Assembly (NCBI GenBank): GCA_946807835.1
Contig: OX327700.1
Coordinates: 22,604,001 to 22,668,000, forward strand
Reading direction: 5' to 3'
Origin: Ailanthus altissimus
Lineage: Eukaryota; Streptophyta; Magnoliopsida; Sapindales; Simaroubaceae
Length of the DNA: 64,000 nucleotides
Shown: one piece after another, positions 8,391 through 62,622 of the stretch
How positions within the stretch are numbered: position 1 is the first letter of the stretch
Layout: every line of letters begins with the position of its first letter
Program-made: the position numbers and the translations under genes
The notes under the pieces: model-generated
The model's database searches: none
What the model was told of the DNA's origin: nothing
The model's input: the letters and a program-made list of their open reading frames with translations, nothing else

Positions 8391-9584
8391 TTAACCCCAT
8401 GAAAAAAAACTCAAAGCCATGGGAGTTCTAGCCATAGTTCCCTGCACATTTGTAGTCATTTTTGCATTAGCCAAAGGCTGCTCCAACGAAACATCCATAG
8501 CTTTTAAGCCTTGTAGAAGGAAAATGTCCTTATCCTTAGGTATTAAGTTAAGAGAAGAACTATAATAGAGATCAATATTAATACCCTTGCATAGCGAAAA
8601 TATAAGATTATCAAGCAAATATAACAAGAATATAAAGCAGATCAATAAGAGCACAACACAACTAATATACATGGTTTAGTAATTGTTTACGCCCACAGTG
8701 GATCAAAGGATCTTAACCTCTCTTATTAACTCTTCTAGAGAATTTTACAAGAAAAACAAAGTGAAAAACTCTCAAAGGATTTATGAATGGTGTACTTTTG
8801 TTCTTCCAAGAACATCAACACTCAAACAATGGTTCCATCTTAGTTTTTAAAAATACTTAGTGTCTACCTAATTCTTTTTTTCTCTTAAATCTCTCTTTTT
8901 AATGCTTGATCTCAAAATAAAGGGTTTACAAGGTTTATATAGAGAATAAAACATCTCTAGAAACTCTAAACCTAATTGAAATAAGAGTCCACGTATTTAA
9001 GAGTCTAAAACCTCCTCAAACAAATCAAGACGAGCCAAAATAAGACTTTCTTAAAACTGGGCACCGCAGCGCCAAAACAACCCCGAGCCAGCACTGTGGC
9101 GCTGGCCTTTTTGCTTCCAACGTTGCGATGCTACGACCTTGGCGCTACTGCCTGGACATCAGTCCTTCATTTTTCTTCTCCTTTTCATACTTCTAAGTCC
9201 CGTCTTGCTCCCCCCATATGCATTTAATGTGTCCCAGCTTAACTTCAACAAGACTTTCCCCTTTGTATTCATCTTTCTTACCCATACAAGATTTTTGAAT
9301 CACCATTTCTAACAAACCCGTTAAAATTACCCTTCATCAGATTCTTTTTAGCCTTGTTCCAAGAATAAGAACGAGTCTGACCTCGAGTTTCTATGATCTC
9401 CTTTCAAAATTTCATACCAGATAAAACCACAATCGAAACATTTTAATGGTAGATTCTCATAATGTACCTTAACTTGAAATTGTAGCCTTCTCTTTCCACT
9501 ATTAGGAACTGAGGCAACTAACTAGAAACATCCACCTCCACCAGGACTCTCGCATAAAAACTATAAATGTCTTCCCTTGTAGCC
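8391..9584 (-). pseudogene. LINE A ORF1 middle and 3' part, interrupted
   Basis: Between 9575 and about 9220 the minus strand encodes a YARVLVEVDVS segment, then VERRGYNFKL, characteristic of plant L1 ORF1 (the DUF4283-type nucleic-acid-binding protein) just before its zinc knuckle. A related segment (FARVLVKMDVE) occurs in LINE B near 48.5 kb. The frame is lost about 100 codons later. The LTR retrotransposon at 9585 inserted exactly in this ORF. The part from about 8540 to 9215 does not look like ORF1 and is described separately. Confidence 0.65.
8540..9215. other. Unassigned insertion-like block within LINE A ORF1
   Basis: This block interrupts LINE A ORF1. It is AT-rich except for a short GC-rich tract at about 9060-9160 holding repeated gcgccg/gcgctg words (gcaccgcagcgccaa). 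A similar tract of repeated cagcgccg words occurs inside the solo LTR at 33.46-33.54 kb, so the block may be a fragment of another LTR. I could not find matching ends. Confidence 0.35.
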
Positions 9585-11141
9585 TGATGAACACTTGAAA
9601 ATGCATGTTGTTAGGAGATTCAATCACCATTTAATGTCACTAATTTTAGTATTTTCTGTATTTTTAGCTTGAAATAAAGTGTTCTCCTTAAATTGTGATT
9701 AATGAATGTTATTTGGACAGGTTTAGGTAAACTGGACATAACTCTCAATGTAGAAATCGAAATGAAGAAATTCTTGAACCTGGTGCAACATGACTCAATC
9801 TTACATAAATTTTAAGAATAGTGGAAAAGCCAAATCCAATATGTTATGGGCCAAAAATTGAGATACAACAGAATCGGATTACAACTCTTACCTAGCTTGA
9901 CCCAATTTACGTATTTGGACCGTATCTCACAAAATATGTATTCAATTGGTGTAATTCTTGAAGCTATGAATTGCTAACTTAACTATCAACAACTCGTATG
10001 TTTATGGTAAAGTCCAAATCAGCCGTTATCATGGACCAAATCGCATTGCAAGTGGGTAAAATGGTTGTTGGCCGAATTCTGATGTATCTTCGGAATTTTG
10101 CTCATATCTCATTGGATACTCATCCAATTTGCATAACATTAGTGCCTATGGAAAGAAGAGTCAAAATGCTACAACTTTCATGTCGGCTACTGAAGCTGAA
10201 TTGATCATTTACATTATCAAAAACATGCTGCAAATGGATACACGAGTTATTGGCTTAAAATTATTGAAGATTGATGTCATCCATGACATATGTCCATTCA
10301 TTGCCTATATAAGGAGACACTTAGGACGTTTTTAATAATAGATAATTCTCTATTTTTTTATTCTCATTAACATGTATTGTAATTTAGGCTAGAGTTCCTA
10401 GCAAGGCTAAGAGATGAACTTTTATGTGTAGTAAATCTACTTCCATGCTTTAATTCGGTGTCAAGAGCTATAAATGTTGTAAGTTTGGTTTTGATTAAAC
10501 TCTTATCTATTTTATTTTCTATAATCCAGAGGTTATAATTCTCATGTCTCATATATGTTCAGTCATGCTTTTCTTATGTGATTCATGTTGATTTATAATT
10601 GTTACTGGTTACATTGTTTTATATGTTAATCTTTTACTGCAGTATTGTCAATTTGATATATTGTCGATCTTGGATAACATGTAAGGGCAATAAATGTTTG
10701 ATATTCAAGTTAATCTTTTATTGCAATATTGTCAAAATGATATATTGTCGATCTTAGATAACTTGTATAAATAACATGATGTGTGTTAATGCTTGCAAAG
10801 AGTTTAACTAAATCAAATACATGTGTTATCAAATGTGCTATATATTACATACCTTCCGATTGATTGTTTGGAATGTGAAACTTTCAGTTGAGTTATAAAT
10901 ATCGAATCAAAGTATAAAGTAGATTTATAAATCATAATTGTGATTCTCAAAGCCTTGCTTAAATCATCATAAGACATTTTCCTCAATTCATAGATAATTC
11001 TATCTCATCCGTTTAAATCAATTAACCCTTTGCTACTGCTTTAATATTTTACTTCACCAACCTATTTTGCCAAGAGCTTCCTCGTGGGATCGACACCTCA
11101 ATCTATACTGCGATAGCCGCGTTATATTTTGAGTGTAAACA
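9585..11141 (+). repeat. 5' LTR of the LOG-carrying retrotransposon
   Basis: 1557 bp, starting tgatgaacac and ending gtaaaca, the same length as the 3' LTR. A TATA-like motif (cctatataagg) lies at about 10305-10315, a likely promoter for the genomic RNA. Near the 3' end is a gggatcgacac motif that also occurs near the 3' ends of the solo LTRs at 33.2 and 38.5 kb. Small open frames on both strands recur in both LTRs and are not genes. Confidence 0.95.
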
Positions 11142-11147
11142 AAAATT

Positions 11148-11165
11148 TGGCGCCGTTGCTGGGGA
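11148..11165 (+). other. Primer-binding site, tRNA-Asp type
   Basis: tggcgccgttgctgggga begins six bases after the 5' LTR end. It matches the complement of the 3' end of plant tRNA-Asp with one difference (T for C). This primer choice is typical of Athila/Tat Ty3 elements. Confidence 0.9.
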
Positions 11166-11280
11166 GGCACACTAAGCGAAAGTCGGTTGCGATTATAAAT
11201 ACTAAAGTGGTAACTTTGTACATTTTTTTTCTTTATAAAATCTTAGTTTTATTTCCTTTGTTGTAATTTATTTATTATTC

Positions 11281-11822
11281 ATGGTTGGTTCTACCACCTA
11301 ATTTATTTTTTTTTCTTTAGTTAATTTGTTATATTTTATATTATCTTAATGGCTGATTTTACCGCCTAATTAGTTTATTTTCTTTTATCTATTTATCGCA
11401 CTTTATTTTCTTTAGTTTATTTATTGCACTTTTTTTTAATGGCTGGTTTTACCGCCTAACTTCGTTCACTTTCTTTTATTTATTTATTGTACTTTATTTC
11501 TTTAGTTAATTTGTTGTATTTTCTTTTTATTTTGTGGCTGGTTCTACCGCCTAACTTAGTTTATTTATTTATTATTGTACTCTATTTATTTATTGCACTT
11601 TTTTTATTGTACTTTATTTTCATTTTTACGTATTTATTGTAATTTATTTTCTTTAGTTAATATGTTGTATTTTCTTTTTATGGCCGGTTCTACCGCCTAA
11701 CCTTGTATTTATTTACTTATTGTATTTTCTTTTTATTATTTATTTATTGTACTTTTTTTTCCGTACTTTATAGTCTTTTGTTTAGTTATTGTATTTATAT
11801 TTCATGGTTGGTCTTACCACCT
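11281..11822 (+). repeat. Degenerate tandem repeat in the retrotransposon leader
   Basis: Six copies of a core close to ggctggttctaccgccta occur at about 11281, 11350, 11439, 11535, 11680 and 11804, spaced 70-145 bp apart by T-rich filler with tttatttattgtactttattt words. The stretch lies between the primer-binding site and gag, with no open frame. It could be a leader or packaging region that expanded by slippage; that role is inferred. Confidence 0.7.
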
Positions 11823-11913
11823 AACTTATTTCTATTTCTTGTTGTGTTTATTCCACTTCTTAATTTTCCTTAAGCATTTCTTTCCTTAAAAAAAAAAAAA
11901 AATATTAGGATGT

Positions 11914-13569
11914 ATGCATCGACCTAGAGACAAACGAGGAAGATTTGTGAGAGAACTAGAACTAGAACTAGAACCACCCTCACAATTTGTAAGTGAAGAT
12001 AATTCACCTTCTAGTTCATCTTGTAATTCTAACACAATAAGCCAACACGAAGAAAATCCCGTTAGAACTCTAAAAGATTACTTGCATCCTACTCGCACAG
12101 CCACACTATCATGCATTATATTTCCACCTAACACACCACATTCGGATTTTAAACCTGGAATGATACAACTTCTTCCCACTTTTCATGGTCTAGATAGTGA
12201 AAATCCTTATGTACATGTTAGTGAATTTGAAGAGGTAATTGCCACCTTTCATAGCCAACCTGAAGACATAGACACTGTTAGACTTAAATTTTTCCCTTTT
12301 TCTTTGAAAGACAAAGCAAAGAGTTAGTTATACTCTTTGAGGCCGAGGTCTATAGGAACTTGGGCAGAAATGACCCAAGCATTTTTTAATAAATACTTCC
12401 CACAACACAAAACTAATGGCCTGAAAAGACAAATTTCTTCCTTCTCCCCAAAAGACAGTGAAACCTTATATCAAACATGGGAAAGGTTTAAAGAGTTGCT
12501 AAATCTGTGTCATCGCCATGGGTATAAAAATTGGCGCTTGGTTAGTTATTTCTATGAGGGACTCACAATTAGAGAGCGCCAATTTGTTGAGATGATGTGT
12601 AATGGGGAGTTCTTTCATAAAGATCCTGAGGAAGCCATAGAATTTCTTAATGACTTAGCCGAAAAAGCCCATACATGGACTGGACCTAGCATTACTGAAA
12701 GCACAAATAGGTCACGACCCAATGGAGTTTTCCATCTTAGGGAAGAAGATAACCTCAAAGCCTAATTAGAGGTCTTAACTAGGGAGTTAGAGGCCTTGAA
12801 AACCAAAGATAGAAGGGTCACCCACACGGTTGCTAGAGTTGAGTCACACGATGTCTGTTTTGTCTGTGGAGGAGCGAAACACTTAGCTCAGGATTGTCCC
12901 ACGTATAGTGAGATGAGAGGGATATATGAGGAACAATGTAATGCCCTAGGGATGTACAAGAAGCCTTATTCACCCTACTCTGAAACATATAATCCTAGCT
13001 GGAGAAACCACCCAAATTTCAGTTGGAAATCTAACCAACAAGCCAACAACCAATGGAAACAAGAACAACAAGCACCCAAGTCTTATGTTGCACCTCAATA
13101 TAATGCACGACCAACTAGGAGTTCTTTAGAGGATACATTACAAGCATTTATGGAGGCACAAAGTAAGACTAATAAAAAATTTGAAATAATTCTTGCACAG
13201 GTGGTGGACGAAAACAAAGAAATCAAGAGTCAAATCACAAAGTTGACCAGTGCCTTAACTGTACAAGAGCGAGGTAAGTTTCCATCTCAACCTCAATCCA
13301 ATCCGAAAGGACAATTCATGGCACAAGCTTCTACTTCTAATGTTCAAAATCTCAAAGAAGTCAATGCCATTACTACTCGAAGTGGTAAGATTGTAAGTGA
13401 GCCTACTCATGAAATTAACACATCTACGAGTAGTAAAGACGCCCCCCTTGAAAAAGAAGCCACAATGGAAAAAGAGCCCGAAAGTAAGTTTTCAATCCCA
13501 GTGCCTTTTCCTCAAGCTCTTTGACCGGTTGGAAAAAATTCAGAAATTCAAGGTGAGATTATAGAACAT
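11914..13569 (+). pseudogene. Gag of the LOG retrotransposon, three in-frame stops
   Basis: The ATG at 11914 opens a frame that stays in register with protease to about 14.03 kb, broken only by stops at 12325 (TAG), 12763 (TAA) and 13522 (TGA). Around 12190-12700 is the retrotransposon gag core: a LKFFPFSLKDKAK segment followed, after the stop, by LYSL and TWAEMTQAFFNKYFP, then ETLYQTWERFKELL. A CX2CX4HX4C zinc knuckle (CFVCGGAKHLAQDC) lies near 12860-12900. The first stop falls where related gags have a conserved Trp. All three stops can be explained by single C-to-T or G-to-A changes, so the protein was recently intact. Gag packages the element's RNA into virus-like particles. Confidence 0.9.
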
Positions 13570-14070
13570 TTGAAACAAGTTAAAATTAATCTTCCCTTGT
13601 TACATTTGATTAAGCAGGTTCCAACTTATGCCAAAGTCATCAAGGATTTATGTACTATCAAAAGAAAACACCATGTGAAGAAAACTGCATTTTTGGCAGA
13701 ACAGGTAAGTGCAGTGATTGAACAAAAGACACCACCCAAGTATAAAGACCCAGGATGTCCCACAATCTCCTGCCAAATTGGGACACATGAGTTTGGTCAA
13801 GCTTTATTGGACTTAGGAGCAAGTGTAAATTTAATGCCTTATTCTATTTACTTGCAGTTAGGACTTGGTGAGATTAAACCAACCTCTGTAGTCCTACAAT
13901 TAGCTGACCGATCAATCAATAAACCACGGGGAATAGTAGAAGATGTTTTGTTGCAAATTGATAAATTTTACTACCCTGTTGATTTTCTTGTTTTAGATAC
14001 TCAGTCTGTTGTTAACATGGAGTCAAAAATCCCTTTTTATTTTGGGGAGACCTTTTCTTGCCACTGCTAA
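13570..14070 (+). pseudogene. Retropepsin-type aspartic protease, frameshifted at its end
   Basis: The frame continues from gag. The catalytic motif LLDLGASVNLMP (the DLGAS variant of the retropepsin D-T/S-G triad) lies at about 13804-13840, followed by the flap and hydrophobic strands ending in VDFLVLD. The enzyme would process the Gag polyprotein as a dimer. A one-base shift in the T run at 14033-14037 throws the frame out. The next conserved box (ILGRPFLATANALID) continues in the frame that starts near 14009. One indel in a homopolymer could also be a sequencing error. Confidence 0.85.
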
Positions 14071-14890
14071 TGCTCTTATTGATTGCAGAAATGGTCTAAT
14101 GAAATTATCTTTTGGGAATATAACTCTTGAGGTGAACATTTTTCATATTGATAAGCAATCACGAGAAGAAGACGAATGCTATCATTCATATATGATAGAC
14201 ACACTTGGAGCGGAGGAAGCTTATAAAAATCATGGCTCTAATTCTTTAGAAAATCTCTTTGATTTTGATATTGAAGAATTGTATTATCCTGATGAAACAA
14301 CTGATATGTTTAGTATTTTTGACTCACAGGATAAAGGAATTCGATTTTGGAAACCAGGCATTGAAAAGTTGCCATGTGAGAGGGAGAAACCAAAATCATC
14401 AAAACTCGAGACACCACGTGTCATCATTGGTGACCAAGGAACACATTTCAGTTCTAGAAAACCTCATAAAGCTTATTGGGCTGTCAAAGCCCTTAACTTT
14501 GATTTGAATGCTGCAGGTCTCCAGAGAAAGTTACAATTGTCAGAAATAGAAGAGCTACGAAATGACGCATATGAAAACTCCAGAATTTATAAAGCTAAAA
14601 TGAAAGTAGCTCATGATAAACAGATCTCAAGGAAACAATTTGAGCCAAATCAACGGGTCTATCTTTATGATTCTCGATTGCATTTACACCCTGGAAAGTT
14701 GAGATCTCGATGGACTGGTCCATTTATGATAAGACATGTTTTTTCTAATGGTGCTGTTGAAATAGAAGACCCCACTGATGGACGGACTTTCAAAGTGAAT
14801 GGACAGCGGCTAAAAAGCTACATGGAAAAGGTAAACGACTCTATGTACCTAGGCGAGATCCCTCTTATGGATCTTGTCTATCGTGATTGA
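14009..14890 (+). CDS. Protease tail joined to integrase C-terminus; RT, RNase H and integrase core deleted
   Basis: This 293-codon open frame starts with the end of the protease region (LGRPFLATANALIDC). At 14400-14460 it shows an integrase segment, VIIGDQGTHFSS, corresponding to the second catalytic Asp region (IISDGGSHF in related elements). It then jumps directly to PHKAYWAVKALNFD, which in full-length Athila/Tat elements lies more than 100 residues further on, past the catalytic Glu. The rest is the integrase C-terminal domain (KLRSRWTGPFMI near 14694-14730, then a DGRTFKVNGQRLK tail). No RT (YADD-type) or RNase H motif exists in the element. The frame is open, but no catalytic polymerase or integrase can result, which marks a deletion derivative. 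Confidence 0.85.
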   Translation: MLTWSQKSLFILGRPFLATANALIDCRNGLMKLSFGNITLEVNIFHIDKQSREEDECYHSYMIDTLGAEEAYKNHGSNSLENLFDFDIEELYYPDETTDMFSIFDSQDKGIRFWKPGIEKLPCEREKPKSSKLETPRVIIGDQGTHFSSRKPHKAYWAVKALNFDLNAAGLQRKLQLSEIEELRNDAYENSRIYKAKMKVAHDKQISRKQFEPNQRVYLYDSRLHLHPGKLRSRWTGPFMIRHVFSNGAVEIEDPTDGRTFKVNGQRLKSYMEKVNDSMYLGEIPLMDLVYRD

Positions 14891-15138
14891 TCAGGTTCAA
14901 TCTATCTGTACCATATTTTATATTTTGTCTATATTTTACCTTTTGACTTTCTATTTTTGCTTTTATTTTCTTGCACATTTTATTTTACTTTATTTTCTTC
15001 TTTTTATTTTTTCTTCAGTGTGATTTTATTTCCCGGTCAAGTGGCGGATACGGTACTCCGTGACTATTAAAGTCAGTTTCTCAGTTCCCTAAAAACTATC
15101 CCTCAAATTGTGCATTCATCTCTTTTCTTTCTTTCAAA

Positions 15139-15756
15139 ATGGATCGCATTCTTGCCAATCTTAAAAAACGTTTTCCTTCATTTCCTCAAAATGCTCTACT
15201 TAAGATTTACAAAGCACGGTGTGAAAGCCTAAGGCTATTGATGTTGGGTAATATCCATGTGGACCTTCGTTGGTTAATTTAAGCCAAGGTTCGGTTGTCT
15301 GGTGAGTTTGAAAATAATTTTGTTTCTCATATGCCTGGTCTTGGAAGAAGCTCTTATGCCAAAAGACGACGAGCAAAAAGGTTACAAGTCTGTCATAAAT
15401 GTGCTCGATGGAATTGTAATTGGAGTTGTCGTTCTTTAGGATTCGTATCTAGAAATCGAGAAGACAAAATTCAGTTCATTAAGGATGGACTGAGTAAGGA
15501 GTCTTTGGATGATATCCTATTGACTCTTGAGACGCATCCCTGTGAGCTCGTGCAACGTGAACTTTTCGATTTATGAAACAAATTCAAAAATGAACATCAA
15601 CGGTATAGTCTTGGGAATCTGACTCTAAAAGACCCTGTTTGCCAATTTATAAGAAAATTGGATGGGAAGCCTATCCCCGACCCATAGAGGGCGTTTAAGC
15701 CGTTACTGGACGTAAAACCAGAGGAAGATGTGAGCCACAATCACAACTACTTGTAA
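15139..15756 (+). pseudogene. Unrecognised Cys-motif ORF in the retrotransposon, three in-frame stops
   Basis: From the ATG at 15139 one frame runs about 205 codons to a TAA at 15754-15756, with only three internal stops (TAA at 15280, TGA at 15574, TAG near 15685). The product is basic at first, with a segment YAKRRRAKRLQ, followed by a possible metal-binding motif CHKCARWNCNWSC (CX2CX4CX3C) near 15391-15430. A charged segment with KDGLSKESLDDIL follows. I do not recognise the family. It is not a gag zinc knuckle and not integrase. It lies between the integrase tail and LOG, and its decay pattern resembles that of gag. It may be an accessory element gene or a second captured host sequence. 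Confidence 0.55.
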
Positions 15757-15942
15757 ATACATGTGTTTTAATTTCAAACTTTATTTTATGAATAGTAGGG
15801 CTACTCATGTAGATGTCTTAAATTCAAATCTTTTTGTTCAATAATGCATGTGGGTCATTATGTTTAAATTTTTGTGTTTTATTTTGAACTCTCTTTTGAT
15901 AAACTGTCGGGTTACCATAATCATTGTTATCATTTGGCACTC

Positions 15943-15950
15943 TATAAATA
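15943..15950 (+). promoter_or_regulatory. TATA-like box upstream of the LOG ORF
   Basis: tataaata sits 53 bp before the LOG ATG, within ctctataaatacagc. That spacing would put a transcription start near 15975 and leave a short leader. It suggests, but does not prove, an internal promoter independent of the LTR. AT-rich DNA makes chance TATA boxes common. Confidence 0.4.
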
Positions 15951-16002
15951 CAGCACCTCAGTTTCTTCATTTTCATATATTGAGATAAAGGTGAGAGTAG
16001 AT

Positions 16003-16650
16003 ATGGAGGAAACCCAAGTTCGACAATTTCGAAATATATGTGTATTTTGTGGATCTAGTCCTGGGGAGAGTAAAGTGTTCGTAGAAGCAGCAAACAATCT
16101 AGGAAAAACATTAGCTGCAAGAAAAATTCATTTGATTTATGGAAGAGGTAGCATTGGGCTAATGGGGTGTGTGTCAACAGCTGCACATTTAGGAGGAAGT
16201 CAAGTTTTAGGTATTATTCCTACAGCTTTGGCCGTAGGAAATCTGACCGGAAAAACAATAGGAGAAGAGTTACAAGTCTCATCCATGCATGAACGTATAG
16301 CCAGAATGCTTTGTAATGCAGACGCTTTTATTGCTTTACCAGGTGGTTTCGGTACCTTGGAAGAAATTTTTCAAATTGTCTCTTGGGCCCAACTGAATAT
16401 CCACTGAAAACCCATAGGTTTGTTGAATGTTAATAACTATTTTGATTGCTTACTTTGTTTTCTTGATCAAGCTGTGGAACAGAATTTTATTTCACATTCG
16501 GCGCAACAGATCCTGGTTTCTGCTACTGAGGCAGATGAATTGATTAACAAATTACAGACAGTTACCTACGAACCTGACCCAGCAATAACTCGGATCGATT
16601 GGTCAGTGGGCCTTAACAAGCGAAAATTGGATCTGACACTTCGTTTGTAA
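16003..16650 (+). pseudogene. LOG-like: Intronless LOG-like cytokinin riboside 5'-monophosphate phosphoribohydrolase inside the retrotransposon
   Basis: LOG enzymes release active cytokinin bases from cytokinin riboside monophosphates in the cytosol. The frame has 215 codons, the normal LOG length, and is broken only by a TGA at 16405 (codon 135). Visible landmarks: RNICVFCGSSPG near the N-terminus; YGRGSIGLMG at residues 46-55, where the usual GGG has Gly48 changed to Arg; MHERIARM at 95-102 with the catalytic-type Arg98; and PGGFGTLEE at 113-121 ending in the catalytic Glu121. After the stop the frame continues with KPIGLLNVNNYFD and ends in RKLDLTLRL. Plant LOG genes normally contain several introns, so an uninterrupted copy between LTRs points to capture from mRNA (inference). 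As it stands, translation would give a 134-residue N-terminal piece that keeps the catalytic motif but lacks the last third. Confidence 0.9.
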
Positions 16651-17987
16651 ATTTTTCTTTTTATTTATTTATTTATCAGTACTATCATTTTAGTTTATAT
16701 TTGCTTAAGTGTCTCTCAGGTTTGTTTCTTTCAAATAACTAGCGTTTCAGGTAATGTCTCCTATACTTTATCTCTTTCTATTTAAACATTGAGGACAATG
16801 TTTCATCTGGTTTGGGGGGAGGATAGTAGACATACGTTGCATTTTGTAAAAAAAAAAAAAATTGTGGTCCGACATTTGATTAAAATGGCAGAATAAAGAG
16901 TTCATTCTTGAACTCTTGAAACGCATTCTAGGTCAAATTAGAATGGCAGAGTAAGGAGTTTTAGTACTAACTTTTGAAATGCATTTTAACTAACTTTTTG
17001 TTATTTTGTTTTATATTTCATGCATTGTCGTTTACTGCTTGTAGTCTTGGTAATTCTTGTATAAAGGAATTTGCTTTTCTACCTAAGTATGATTTCAGAA
17101 TTATTTAGGTTGAGTCATTGTTTCTATCTAGGTTACTAAAGAATGACTTCCAAAATATGTTTGAGCACAATGCTAAGCCTTGTGGTAAGATGGATGATTC
17201 AATTTATATAGTCAAGAGAATTCCCATGTTTAAGTATATATTTTTCTAATCTCATATATCTTTTGTGAGTAAGTGGAAAGGTTGAGAAAACAGCTTATGA
17301 ACCTTCATTGATCCTTTGAATTGGTTAATTTTTGTTTAGAATGATATTATTTGAATTAAGGGATAAGTTGGTTACATTTGTGCATAATATAATTTGGTGA
17401 GAAACCTTTGTAATGCTTCCTTGTATTCTTCAAAAAAAAAAAAAACACAAAAATACCAAAAACAAGAAAAAAAAAAAAGAAGCAATTGAGTTTAATAAAG
17501 TCTTCATTCAATTTTAGAAGACAAATATCTTGTAAAACAGTTTTCTCACCAAGTTATAATTGTATTATTCTCACAAGCCAATTAAAGTTCCAAAGTTGGC
17601 GTATGATATGAATAATTGATTTTTAAACAAATAATTTTCCTATCTTCGGATCAATGTTAGTTTATATGTCTGTCCTTAAAATTGAGTTTTTCTTGAGTGC
17701 TTAACCGTTTTCCAACTCCATAAGAAAAGTCCTAACCTTTTAAACAGTCATACACCTGTGAGGATATGGAGTTGAGGCTTTTACTTGGAGAAATTCTCAA
17801 GGCTATATCTATTGTGGTTTGTGGTTAGATGGTTATGGTTTAGTTCACACACACACAAATTATGGAAGTTGTAATTGAAAAAACCATGATAGCAACAGTG
17901 ATCTCGAACTGACGTTTTGATTGAAGTGCTTAGGTAGTTTTGCATATTCTATTTACGCTTGAATTGCTAGAGACTAGCAATAAGCTG
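16651..17987 (+). other. Untranslated 3' region of the retrotransposon
   Basis: No plausible ORF is present. A purine-rich tract, ggtttggggggaggata, lies near 16809-16825 and resembles an extra polypurine tract. A-rich runs occur at 16848-16861 and 17433-17480, and a CA microsatellite near 17848-17857. The stretch connects the LOG ORF to the 3' LTR. Confidence 0.5.
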
Positions 17988-17998
17988 GTTGGGGGCTG
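17988..17998 (+). other. Polypurine-tract-like sequence before the 3' LTR
   Basis: ggttgggggct immediately precedes the TG of the 3' LTR. Its position is right for the plus-strand primer of LTR retrotransposons, although it is interrupted by pyrimidines. Confidence 0.55.
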
Positions 17999-19555
17999 TG
18001 ATGAACACATGAAAATGCATGTTGTTAGGAGATTCAATCACTATTTAATGTCACTAATTTTAGTATTTTCTGTATTTTTAGCTTGAAATAAAGTGTTCTC
18101 CTTAAATTGTGATTAATGAATGTTATTTGGATAGGTTTAGGTAAACTGGACATAACTCTCAATGTAGAAATCGAAATGAAGAAATTCTTGAACCTGGTGC
18201 AACATGACTCAATCTTACACAAATTTTAAGAATAGTGGAAAAGTCAAATCCAATATGTTATGGGCCAAAAATTGAGATACAACAGAATCGGATTACAACT
18301 CTTACCTAGCTTGACCCAGTTTACGTATTTGGACCGTATCTCACAAAATACATATTCAATTGGTGTAATTCTTGAAGCTGTGAATTTCTGACTTAACTAT
18401 CAACAACCCGTATGTTTATGGTAAAGTCCAAATCAGCCGTTATCATGGACCAAATCGCATTGCAAGTGGGTAAAATGGTTGTTGGCCGAATTCTGATGTA
18501 TCTTTGGAATTTTACTCATATCTCATTGGATACTCATCCAATTTGCATAACATCAGTGCCTATGGAAAGAAGAGTTAAAATGCTACAACTTTCATGTCGG
18601 CTACAGAAGCTGAATTGATCATTTACATTATCAAAAACGTGCTGTAAATGGATACACGAGTTATTGGCTTAAAATTATTGAAGATTGATGTCATCCATGA
18701 CATATGTCCATTCATTGCCTATATAAGGAGACACTTAGGACGTTTTTAATAATAGATAATTCTCTCTTTTTTTATTCTCATTAACATGTATTGTAATTTA
18801 GGCTAGAGTTCCTAGCAAGGCTAAGAGATGAACTTTTATGTGTAGTAAATCTACTTCCATGCTTTAATTCGGTGTCAAGAGCTATAAATGTTGTAAGTTT
18901 GGTTTTGATTAAACTCTTATCTATTTTATTTTCTATAATCCAGAGGTTATAATTCTCATGTCTCATATATGTTCAGTCATGCTTTTCTTATGTGATTCAT
19001 GTTGATTTATAATTGTTACTGGTTACATTGTTTTATATGTTAATCTTTTACTGCAGTATTGTCAATTTGATATATTGTCGATCTTGGATAACATGTAAGG
19101 GCAATAAATGTTTGATATTCAAGTTAATCTTTTACTGCAATATTGTCAAAATGATATATTGTCGATCTTAGATAACTTGTATAAATAACATGATGTGTGT
19201 TAATGCTTGCAAAGAGTTTAACTAAATCAAATACATGTGTTATCAAATGTGCTATATATTACATACCTTCCGATTGATTGTTTGGAATGTGAAACTTTCA
19301 GTTGAGTTATAAATATCGAATCAAAGTATAAAGTAGATTTATAAATCATAATTGTGATTCTCAAAGCCTTGCTTAAATCATCATAAGACATTTTCCTCAA
19401 TTCATAGATAATTCTATCTCATCCGTTTAAATCAATTAACCCTTTGCTACTGCTTTAATATTTTACTTCACCAACCTATTTTGTCAAGAGCTTTCTCGTG
19501 GGATCGACACCTCAATCTATACTGCGATAGCCGCGTTATATTTTGAGCGTAAACA
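17999..19555 (+). repeat. 3' LTR of the LOG-carrying retrotransposon
   Basis: 1557 bp, collinear with the 5' LTR without indels. By eye about 24 substitutions separate the two, most of them transitions and most in the first 700 bp. It ends gtaaaca and is followed at once by the target duplicate tagcc and then LINE A ORF1 sequence. Confidence 0.95.
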
Positions 19556-20177
19556 TAGCCTTATTTAATTAAGAGGCAGAACCATACCCCTAATGATACC
19601 CATGACTATCTTTGGACTTCAATATTCTCAGCATATACTGTAAATCCAAACCCATACTTGATAGTTCTTATGAATTTCAATAGTATAAGGGTTAAAATTC
19701 GGATGCCATTAATAAAGATGGAAATAGCCCGAATTCAGAGTATAAGTGCCCCTGCCTCAAACTCTTTGCATGTTCACAGCATCCTTAGGACTTAGAAACC
19801 TTTTGGCTTCGAAAACAAGTCCCAATCATGTTTAGAGTTCCATAATTTATTAAGTCCCAATTTTAGGGCATCCACTTTGATTGGTTGCGATTATTTTTTT
19901 AATATCAAACGATCAATAAAATTAGATTTACTTTGAAGGAGACATTTTTTATGTTCTATTTCATCAATCATGATAAAAAAAAAAAAAAAAGAAACTGGTC
20001 CCCATTGAAGCAAAGAGGTGGAATTTGCAACGGATGTGTAGTGATATCCGGTGAAAAGGAAAGAATAGATGCAAAGGACCTTTTCACTAGAATTGTCGAT
20101 GTTGCTTCCACTGATTCCAGTTGCTTCTGTTTATACCGTGCCAGCGGGTTAGCCATCTCCTCAATCACGTCGGCCAT
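19556..20177 (-). pseudogene. LINE A ORF1, 5' part
   Basis: On the minus strand an ATG at 20177 opens MADVIEEMANPLARYKQ, followed by RSFASIL and an IPPLCFNGD segment, a typical beginning of plant L1 ORF1. An A/T homopolymer at about 19976-19990 shifts the frame. The remaining DUF4283-like sequence (a W-G-WDLFSKPKGF region and VWVWI) continues to the retrotransposon boundary at 19556 and resumes at 9584. Confidence 0.6.
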
Positions 20178-44249: not shown

Positions 44250-47200
44250 ATCTTACTGAGCGTAGATTTGCCTTTAGATTTCCTACAGAGAAAGGAGATC
44301 ACTCGTTGCCATCTGTCCAGGCATTGATTGAGTTGACACGCCATAAGTACTTTGTGTCATATATCATTACTAAGCCTGCATTGGAAAAATAAGTGTGCAC
44401 TTGTCTCCTTGTCACAACCACAAAGAGGACAATCATCTGATGGAATAAGCCCTTATTGTTTTAGTCTCTCCCTTGTAGATAATCTGTCCTTCAAAGCTAA
44501 CCAAGTAATGAAGCTGTGTTTAGGAATATGTTGCATTCTCCATATCAGTTTATACCATCCCACCTTAACATCATTATTCTTGAGACTCCTCCAAGCACTC
44601 GCAATAGAAAACTTTGCATTGGGGCTTGCTGTCCATGAAATTCTATCCTCTCTTTCAGTAATTGAAAAAAAATTTCGGAGATAATCCTATACCTGAGCAG
44701 TGTTCTCGTCCAAAGGATCAGGGAGGTTCTAATGACCATGCTTCCATAGATTATTAACCTTAGCATCCCGTGGAATATCCACATCAAAGATGTCAATGTA
44801 GGGAAATTTATCAACTATTGATTCCCTACCCAGCCATGGATCCCACCAAAAATAGAAGGATTTGTCGTTACCCAAATCATAGGAGAACAATTATTTTATC
44901 TGACTTCTCAATTCAAGGATTTTCCTCCATGTCCAGCTGCAATTCATTGGCTTTGTGATTCCCCAGAAACTTAGCTTCAGCAGTTTGTTATCAGTTACCT
45001 AATTTGCCCATAAAAAGGTTTCCACAGAAACTAGCTCCCAGATATGCTTAGTAACCGCTGATAAATTCCACAAGCTTATAGATTTAATGCCAATATCGCC
45101 TTCTTTTTTTCCTTTGCACACCTCATTCCAGCCCATTAATCCTCTCTTCCCCTGTTAGTTACCTCCATACAATAAGAAATTACGGCATTTGCTATCAATT
45201 TCTTTAATGACTGACTTAGGCAGGGTGAACATAGAACACCAGTAGACGTGCATACTCATTATGACAGATTTTATTAATTACAGCTGTGAGGATATGCACT
45301 GTTTAGTCTGACAAGCCGGGACATACCGGTCCCAGTGGGCCATCACTGGTCCAGACCTCACAGTGGCCTCCGAACATAGTACCAATTATTTAACTTTGGC
45401 CTCCCTAACGCTCGAACCCGGGTAGGACATACCACCTCAAATGCCTAACGAGTTCAAAGTCAGTACCATTGGAGCTGGCCAGCTCTAATGGTACTGACTT
45501 CGAACTCATTAGGCATTTGAGGTGGTATGTCCCACCCGGGTTCGAGCGTTGGGGAGGCCAAAAGTTAAACAATGGGTACTGTGTGAATGGAGGCCACTAT
45601 GAGGTCTAGACCAGTGATGGCCCACTGGGACCGGTATGTCTCGGCTTGTCAGACTAAACGGTGCGTATCCTCATAGCAGCCTCCCCGCATAACTCAAATA
45701 TTTCACAGTCTAACTTGAGATTCTAGCAGTTATCCTATTAAGCTCCTGACAGTGGTATTTTTTCAGTCCACCTGAAATTAGGGAAATACTAAAGTATTTG
45801 ATAGGCAGCATATCTTGTTGGTACTGGGTAATCTATAGAATTGTCTCCTTGATAGACTAAGAAACATTCTCAAAGAAAATGAAACTCTTACTAGCGTTAA
45901 GGTGTAGACCTGAAACCATTAAAAATTTATTAAGAACTCGCTTAAAGTGACCCACCGACCTGTCATCGCCATAAGAGAACAGGAATAAGTCATCTGCAAA
46001 TATCAAGTGATTTAACTGCCGCCTCTTACACCCCCTATGATATATAAACTGGTTTTGAGGAATACATCTCAGGCTTTTACTAAGGTATTCCATGGCCAAC
46101 ACAAATAGTAGAGGGGACATGGGATCCCCCTGCTTCAATCCTTTCATCCCCGGGAAAAAGCCCTCTAATCTGCCATTAACCACAACTGAGTACTTGTTTA
46201 TTCTGAAACACTTTATGATGATATTGATAAAGTGATAAGGAAAGTTAAACTCCATCAATACCTCTTTCAGGAAATTCCATGAGACTGAATCATAAGCCTT
46301 GCGGAGGTCTATCTTAAGAACACATATTGGGCTACCACTATTTCGATCATAGCCCCTCACAAGTTCATATGCCAATAAAACATTATCGGTTATCTTCCTA
46401 TTAGGAATAAAAATTGATTGAGTGGGGTTGACTAAATACCTCACCACATTCCTTAGCCTGCATGTTATTATTTTGGTGATACATTTGTAAAGGACCGTAC
46501 AACATGCAATTGGTCTATAGTCTTTCAAGCTATGAGGATTATGAATCTTAGGCATGAGAGTAATGGCAGTGGCATTTATGGGGTTGTAGAATTGACCTGA
46601 GGAGAAGAAATGTTGCACAGCTTCAGTCACCTCCTTTCCAAGAATGTGCCAATATTTTTAAAAAAATTAACTGTTATAACCATCAGGTCTTGGGGCTTTA
46701 TCACCATTGATGCTAAAAATAGCATTTTTGACTTCTTGGGCTATGACAGGAGCATTCAGCATGTCTCTATTGTCTACCTTCAGTTTAGGGCCAGCATCTA
46801 TGATTCTCTTTTGTATAGACGCCCTATAAAAAGTGTTGGTACCCAATAAATCTTTGTAGTAACTGACTATAGCATCTTTCCCCATTTTGGCTCTTAATCG
46901 AAGTGATCTATTCTGAGCTCTTCTCTGCTTAACTGACTTATGAAAGTAGTTGGTGTTTGAATCCTCTATCTAAATCCATCTAATTCTTGATTTTTGTCTT
47001 ATAATGCTTTCTTCAGCATAAATAAATTTCCTTAAATGCTGATAAATACCCCTTTCCTCATCTTGAAGAATTTGGTTGAAGGATCAAACTACTTTGTAAG
47101 GAGGCCAACATCAATTTGTAGTCTTCAATCTTTTGCTGGACATCAGAGAAAAACCCTTTGTTAAGCTCTTTTAGCTTGGGTTTTAATAACTTGAGTTTGA

Positions 47201-61248: not shown

Positions 61249-62622
<1,374 letters not shown>

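Follow-up and report, generated by a model that had tools for sequence, protein, structure and literature searches.

Anatomy of the element

An LTR retrotransposon occupies positions 9585–19555 of a 64,000-nucleotide stretch of Ailanthus altissimus DNA (OX327700.1), referred to here as the window (Table 1). A sequence-only reading of this DNA had recognised a perfect target-site duplication, a pair of 1557-bp LTRs and a primer site, and all of these were confirmed; transitions account for 20 of the 24 mismatches between the LTRs, and the primer site presumably fits plant tRNA-Asp. The same reading had reported gag and protease. The former is secure, with a Retrotrans_gag match (E 2.4e-13) above the Pfam cut-off, and the latter is weak, the aspartyl-protease match (E 0.0013) lying below it. 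What had been overlooked is that the RT, RNase H and most of the integrase are missing, as judged by reading the frames, that the gag–protease frame has three stops and that a second accessory gene is present at 15139–15687. No tRNA-like gene was found.

Table 1. Features of the retrotransposon and its flanks (window coordinates)
Feature	Position	Strand	Remarks
Target-site duplication TAGCC, left copy	9580–9584	.	
5′ LTR, 1557 bp, TG...CA	9585–11141	+	24 mismatches to the 3′ LTR
Primer binding site TGGCGCCGTTGCTGGGG	11148–11164	+	
Leader, six diverged copies of a ~83-bp repeat (family D1)	11225–11830	+	
gag and protease frame, three internal stops	11914–14070	+	
Protease end in another frame, fused to integrase tail	14009–14890	+	
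Short spacer between pol and NABP-like gene, nearly identical in L001	15030–15067	+	
Carlavirus NABP-like gene, two internal stops (codons 48 and 146)	15139–15687	+	
117-nt segment spanning the NABP-like stop codon; possible RNA structure	15643–15759	+	5 mismatches to L001
LOG-containing stretch	15760–16745	+	In L001, ~115 nt without LOG instead
LOG (cytokinin riboside 5′-monophosphate phosphoribohydrolase) pseudogene	16003–16650	+	TGA at 16405–16407; YGRG
LOG C-terminal tail: basic residues and LDLTLRL (EAR-like LxLxL)	16605–16647	+	
Polypurine-tract-like GGTTGGGGGCTG, abutting the 3′ LTR	17987–17998	+	By eye
3′ LTR, 1557 bp	17999–19555	+	
Target-site duplication TAGCC, right copy	19556–19560	.	

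The integrase tail is matched by no Pfam model; it aligns with the last part of the integrase ORF carried by a related element, L001, in which the order of integrase followed by extra ORFs is visible. RT sequence is absent from both the window and L001. In both, a pyrimidine-rich run with CAG at its end, resembling a splice acceptor, comes before the short spacer. Paired LTRs, target-site duplication, primer site and a gag–pol order with integrase last are those of Ty3/gypsy elements, the pol core being missing from the window, and no frame of this copy, be it pol core, gag, NABP-like or LOG, is intact. We conclude that the element is a decayed, non-autonomous Ty3/gypsy copy, probably Athila-like, the placement with Athila being one that we assume from earlier reports.

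The LOG frame and its lineage

The sense, intronless LOG frame described between the integrase tail and the 3′ LTR is indeed present. It matches the Pfam family Lysine_decarbox with an E-value of 2.3e-38, matches TIGR00730 as well, and carries both expected motifs, MHxR with its Arg (as MHER) and PGGxGTxxE (as PGGFGTLEE), which assigns it to the LOG fold family. The frame is not a product of chance, since it holds 1 internal stop whereas base-shuffled sequences average 14.8, and none of 2000 shuffles had as few. It had been taken to be of normal length and functional. This does not hold for the window copy: the in-frame TGA at codon 135 leaves 134 LOG codons and the nearly invariant YGGG has become YGRG, so that no intact full-length enzyme is encoded.

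In phylogenetic trees, a copy that is 97% identical falls with 24 relatives on a single branch (100/98) apart from plant LOG3 and LOG8, and 11 LOGs of this element clade group with 9 ordinary plant LOGs, separate from 5 bacterial LOGs (100/99). The proposal that the frame is a LOG retrocopy thus stands in part. The frame is intronless and of plant origin; it is not recent, belonging to an old clade. A plant origin by one old capture is the most likely history, as part of the explanation that we favour below. A bacterial origin was considered and rejected, as the 172 plasmid records that matched are all below 60% identity and the tree sets the bacterial LOGs apart. Neither P0002, nor alignment A2, nor a 21-base pattern had a match among the viral contigs searched.

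A lone LOG retrocopy lying inside the element was likewise rejected. There is no A run of at least 8 in 15760–16745, no convincing flanking duplication, and relatives are many and dispersed in other genomes, which answers the concern that the LOG might be an isolated later insertion. Such A runs lie at 11888, 16848, 17432 and 17467, all outside the extra segment. The 8-bp repeat TTGTAAAT at 15751 and 16645 is at chance level, as is TATAAATA at 15943, of which the element has 6 occurrences on its + strand.

Among the matches listed, LOG relatives are dispersed across several plant genera. The one hint that other relatives may also belong to elements is a gag/protease-like stretch in the Xanthoceras protein P0003 (E 0.095). 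That the clade is instead a normal, intronless, multi-copy host family, from which the window copy was carried into the element, is quite unlikely: Reevesia pubescens loci make up 35 of the 120 LOG matches listed, under 17 chromosome labels, a transposon-like spread, and published Gypsy consensus sequences of Citrus and Populus contain the domain (PMC9289625), even though annotators have labelled several relatives as LOG genes and a LOG is seen inside an element on DNA in this window only, the other relatives being known as proteins.

The active site is conserved in the element clade. Across 113 relatives with a median identity of 61%, R98 of the catalytic motif is kept in 95.6% and E121 in 99.1%. 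A basic tail ending in LxLxL, the form of an EAR motif, is found in 99 of the 120 LOG relatives listed, its strict form being missing from the other 21, and in none of 120 LOG1/LOG3-type plant proteins. The AlphaFold model of LOG has a pLDDT of 86.7, with tail residues 202–215 below 50 and predicted to be disordered. Compared as protein, the element-clade LOG has only ~50% identity with LOG3 and LOG8 of Arabidopsis, and because identity is this low, the siRNAs against host LOG genes that had been envisaged are unlikely.

A carlavirus-type gene between pol and LOG

The second accessory gene belongs to the carlavirus NABP family: the window piece scores 33.0 bits with PF05515 (cut-off 23) and 30.8 bits with PF01623 (cut-off 20.9). 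Its ~182-residue counterpart in L001 scores 34.2 bits with PF05515 and 19.8 with PF01623, the latter below the cut-off. Among nine relatives scanned, six pass PF05515, three falling below its cut-off, and four pass PF01623, whereas local shuffles (seven of nine made) matched no Pfam family. The gene has 277 database relatives. Used as a profile against the PDB, the NABP alignment yielded nothing beyond a chance match (E 0.27), and the AlphaFold model, at a pLDDT of 47.7, is unusable. Both stops in the window copy precede a TAG that also terminates the L001 frame. The gene is under purifying selection, with a dN/dS of 0.208 between the window and L001 over 180 codons, the two stop codons skipped. 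No description of a carlavirus-type gene in LTR elements was found in the titles and abstract openings of the literature matches listed, and its presence between pol and LOG is new here.

L001 contains integrase and an intact NABP-like gene and lacks LOG at the homologous place, between two homologous flanks. It is a lone example of an element without LOG, and the gene could have been lost from it. Synonymous divergence from the window is 0.875 in the integrase tail and 0.491 in the NABP-like gene, and because these values differ, the two regions may have different histories. This window is the only DNA on which a NABP-like gene and a LOG have both been observed. A LOG relative, P0014, and a NABP relative, P0131, both lie on 2128-base contigs, which hints at a single contig with both. 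The 117-nt segment around the NABP-like stop codon has folding z-scores of -3.38 and -1.95. We give no weight to these or to a double base change within the segment, which 257 of 500 shuffles equal when two sequences are used.

Under ordinary transduction, the element would have picked up a LOG from the host and a piece of a virus by chance, as passengers that decay with their copy. Capture of host genes by plant LTR elements is documented (PMC7264820), and the broken frames of this copy fit such a course, but the account is strained, and improbable, in the face of the many NABP relatives, the spread of LOG relatives over plant genera, the selection on the NABP-like gene and the active site and tail kept by the LOG clade.

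Proposed functions

The explanation that we consider the most probable, and hold with moderate confidence, is that the window contains a decayed, non-autonomous copy from a Ty3/gypsy lineage that bears two accessory genes, both in sense, downstream of pol and ahead of the 3′ LTR, one NABP-like, with a putative role in silencing and/or transcription, and the other an old plant-derived LOG that has retained its active site and acquired a basic LxLxL tail. By analogy with the carlavirus proteins, the NABP-like zinc-finger protein would most likely dampen RNA silencing and/or act as a nuclear transcription factor. The LOG of intact copies, judged from its residues, most likely remains an enzyme that produces active cytokinin, and its tail may recruit a TOPLESS-type corepressor. 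We infer both biochemical functions, as well as a nuclear location and a benefit to the element.

The two proteins might instead help only the element itself, binding RNA or nucleotides as chaperones or from an env-like position, and have no part in hormone biology or silencing. The stretch between pol and the 3′ LTR is where env-like genes lie (PMC7264820), NABP is a nucleic-acid-binding family, and the cytokinin specificity of LOG is a prediction, the cytokinin-specific NCBIfam equivalog model NF058542 giving P0002 117.1 bits against a cut-off of 300; conserved LOG active-site residues and the silencing and transcription roles of carlavirus relatives weigh the other way, and we regard the proposal as unlikely. 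A doubtful extension of the favoured explanation, to be viewed as speculation, is a two-gene module for host manipulation, in which a virus-type protein would block silencing and reprogram transcription while a nuclear, corepressor-recruiting cytokinin enzyme kept cells dividing or meristem-like, placing new copies in cells that pass to the next generation.

With a gene of a carlavirus silencing-suppressor family under purifying selection in the same element, beside a LOG whose clade has acquired a tail like that of a repressor, what had been an odd cargo suggests an idea that can be tested: proteins for anti-silencing and growth control may be among those that plant retrotransposons themselves encode. 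A further question is whether carlavirus NABP came from retrotransposons or the reverse.

Comparison with known systems

Steinbauerova et al. are said to have described, in 2011, a LOG extra ORF (YgdH, LOGL4-like) in Athila-like/Gypsy elements. The sequence-only reading had called LOG a new kind of cargo; in plant Gypsy elements it is already published, as a domain match. For two Citrus species and Populus trichocarpa, Alvarado-Marchena et al. (2022; PMC9289625) report Gypsy consensus sequences that contain the YgdH/LOG domain, in agreement with Steinbauerova 2011. Those elements resemble the one in the window in having a LOG-family domain inside a plant Gypsy element; unlike for the window lineage, section 12 of that paper makes no mention of a carlavirus-type gene or an LxLxL tail. 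Orchid Gypsy elements offer a parallel, a Gypsy lineage there having kept an additional ORF for an enzyme, an AlkB-type m6A demethylase, but the enzyme and the plants are different and activity was shown in vitro there (PMC9289625).

In carlaviruses, p12 of chrysanthemum virus B is a nuclear transcriptional activator and silencing suppressor (PMC7588395). The carlavirus NABP/cysteine-rich proteins (PF01623, PF05515) share with the element gene a basic stretch, a Cys motif and a preceding helix, whereas the latter is encoded by a retrotransposon and its cysteine spacing looks, by eye, shorter. Athila and Bagy2 have env-like ORFs in sense orientation that can be likened by position to the accessory genes, lying between pol and the 3′ LTR with possible spliced expression (PMC7264820). 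Finally, the plant LOG1, LOG3 and LOG8 proteins (PDB 2a33, 1ydh) share fold family and active-site motifs with the element LOG, which nevertheless forms its own clade and carries the basic LxLxL tail that all 120 LOG1/LOG3-type proteins lack.

Structure, age and decay of the element

The element is delimited by paired LTRs and flanked on either side by the target-site duplication TAGCC, and these ends show the coordinates of the sequence-only reading to be exact. The LTRs differ by 24 mismatches, 20 of which are transitions; assuming 1.3e-8 substitutions per site and year, this divergence places insertion roughly 0.6 million years ago. Pfam recognises gag and gives only a weak match to protease. 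The gag–protease frame contains three internal stops, and its protease end shifts to another frame before joining the integrase tail; the copy lacks reverse transcriptase, RNase H and most of the integrase. The 64-kb window holds no further copy of the element parts tested. Two sense accessory genes lie downstream of pol, one resembling carlavirus NABP and the other belonging to the LOG family of cytokinin-activating enzymes.

Six diverged copies of an approximately 83-bp repeat lie in the leader that separates the primer site from gag. Antisense to gag is a full-length match to snoR71 (Rfam RF00097; 51.1 bits, gathering threshold 40); retrotransposon sequence may have entered the seed of this family or inflated its membership. 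The window also holds a reading frame of six ubiquitin units, probably a host polyubiquitin gene, and an open frame resembling, by eye, a LINE-type reverse transcriptase.

Positions of features in the window and in the related stretch L001
Feature	Window	L001	Remarks
Element	9585-19555
5' LTR	9585-11141		1557 bp
Leader repeat	11225-11830
snoR71 match	12418-12524		minus strand
Integrase ORF		to 1591
Pyrimidine-rich stretch and motif	15017-15067	1680-1710
First BLASTN match	15026-15774	1662-2436
NABP-like gene	15139-15687	1799-2347	plus strand in window; intact in L001, 182 codons
93-codon open piece	15295-15573
117-nt segment	15643-15759	2303-2419
LOG frame	16003-16650		plus strand
Second BLASTN match	16745-16819	2533-2608
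3' LTR	17999-19555		1557 bp
LINE-type frame	45857-46657		minus strand
Polyubiquitin frame	61249-62622

The NABP-like gene

A 93-codon open piece of this gene scores above the Pfam cut-offs for both Viral_NABP (33.0 bits, cut-off 23) and Carla_C4 (30.8 bits, cut-off 20.9). In the relative search, 277 of 279 candidates pass E 0.001, and of the 120 listed, five are assigned to named plants, with one Populus alba entry (a cluster of 74), two entries from Populus x canadensis and two from Rhamnella rubrinervis. Among nine relatives scanned, six pass the cut-off for PF05515 and four that for PF01623; seven local shuffles of protein P0134, from a set of nine, gave no family match.

A scan of genome_contigs matched 84 stretches, one of them a relative, L001 (DAIEQH010000041.1; 3330 bp), from a Nomurabacteria MAG record. 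Because L001 holds a Ty3/gypsy integrase (rve, E 2.4e-16) alongside the NABP-like gene, it is most likely plant contamination of the bacterial record. Between window and L001 the gene has a dN/dS of 0.208 (dS 0.80, 180 codons), despite partial decay of the window copy, and has been kept by selection between the two elements. Synonymous sites of the integrase tails are saturated, at 0.875 versus 0.491 in the NABP-like gene (Fisher 1.6e-8, approximate counts); either the gene was transferred between pol lineages or constraint acts on its RNA.

The 117-nt segment spanning the stop codon differs by 5 mismatches, and synonymous change is lower in the last 25 codons (2/17 sites versus 55/99; P about 0.001). 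Shuffles fold as well in 1/200 cases for the window and, more weakly, 8/200 for L001; the two sequences give no covariation support. The segment is possibly an RNA element or a site of stop-codon read-through. Both sequences share a 22-codon open extension past the TAG, into which read-through could proceed. Upstream of the gene, a pyrimidine-rich stretch ending in CAG precedes a near-identical motif of 35–40 nt; the CAG site is a putative splice acceptor for a subgenomic RNA.

The LOG gene

The LOG frame matches Lysine_decarbox (Pfam, E 2.3e-38) and has one internal stop, compared with a mean of 14.8 in shuffles. That stop, a TGA, falls at codon 135, and the YGGG motif of relatives is changed to YGRG; the window copy is dead. 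Intact copies do exist, as the stop-free 215-residue relative P0002, from a public contig and 97% identical, demonstrates. L001 carries no LOG in its 3330 bp, and the spacing of the BLASTN matches leaves about 870 bp extra in the window, LOG included. The simplest reading is that a NABP-bearing lineage gained LOG; that L001 lost it instead is conceivable.

Of 8000 candidate relatives scored, 7871 pass E 0.001. The best 120 of these comprise 35 loci of Reevesia pubescens spread over 17 chromosome labels, Diplodiscus (9), Populus (6), Xanthoceras (4), Paulownia (2), one each from Melia, Parasponia and Primulina, and 61 without a species name. Both trees leave out the window's own broken LOG. In the first, of 42 rows (25 element-clade including P0002, 15 LOG1/LOG3-type, LOG8 and one bacterial), a single branch sets off the element clade with support of 100/98. 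The second includes five bacterial LOGs; there, all 20 plant rows group at 100/99, and LOG3-type and LOG8 at 97/92. Both trees thus argue that the element LOG is plant-derived and was captured earlier than a recent retrocopy would have been, provided that the clade's outer position is not an effect of fast evolution; the paralogues sampled are of the LOG1, LOG3 and LOG8 types.

Across 113 relatives of 205–235 residues (median pairwise identity 61%), the active site is conserved: R98 is present in 95.6%, E121, G115, G117 and T118 in 99.1% each, and M95 in 85.8%. R98 and E121 are invariant in 94 ordinary LOGs. A strict C-terminal LxLxL, the pattern of the TOPLESS-binding EAR motif, ends 99/120 listed relatives versus 0/120 LOG1/LOG3-type proteins, and a basic cluster occupies the last 25 residues in 105/120 versus 1/120. 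Among the 21 relatives without this exact ending are predictions that are truncated or fused, as well as a few variants differing by one letter. AlphaFold models LOG with a pLDDT of 86.7, and below 50 in the tail (202–215).

Possible roles and precedents

The NABP-like protein might counter silencing or reprogram transcription, and LOG might raise active cytokinin or act in the nucleus through its tail; together they would favour the element in dividing cells. Among the papers listed in the literature searches, none describes a carlavirus-type gene in LTR elements. For LOG, Steinbauerova 2011 reportedly found LOGL4-like sequence in two Athila-like elements. In PMC9289625, Gypsy consensus sequences from Citrus sinensis and C. 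clementina carry the YgdH/LOG domain, as do those of Populus trichocarpa when that paper's filter is lifted, in agreement with Steinbauerova 2011. On the viral side, carlavirus p12 is described as activating transcription in the nucleus and suppressing silencing in the cytoplasm (PMC7588395), and silencing suppression is a common role of carlavirus cysteine-rich proteins (PMC12172455).
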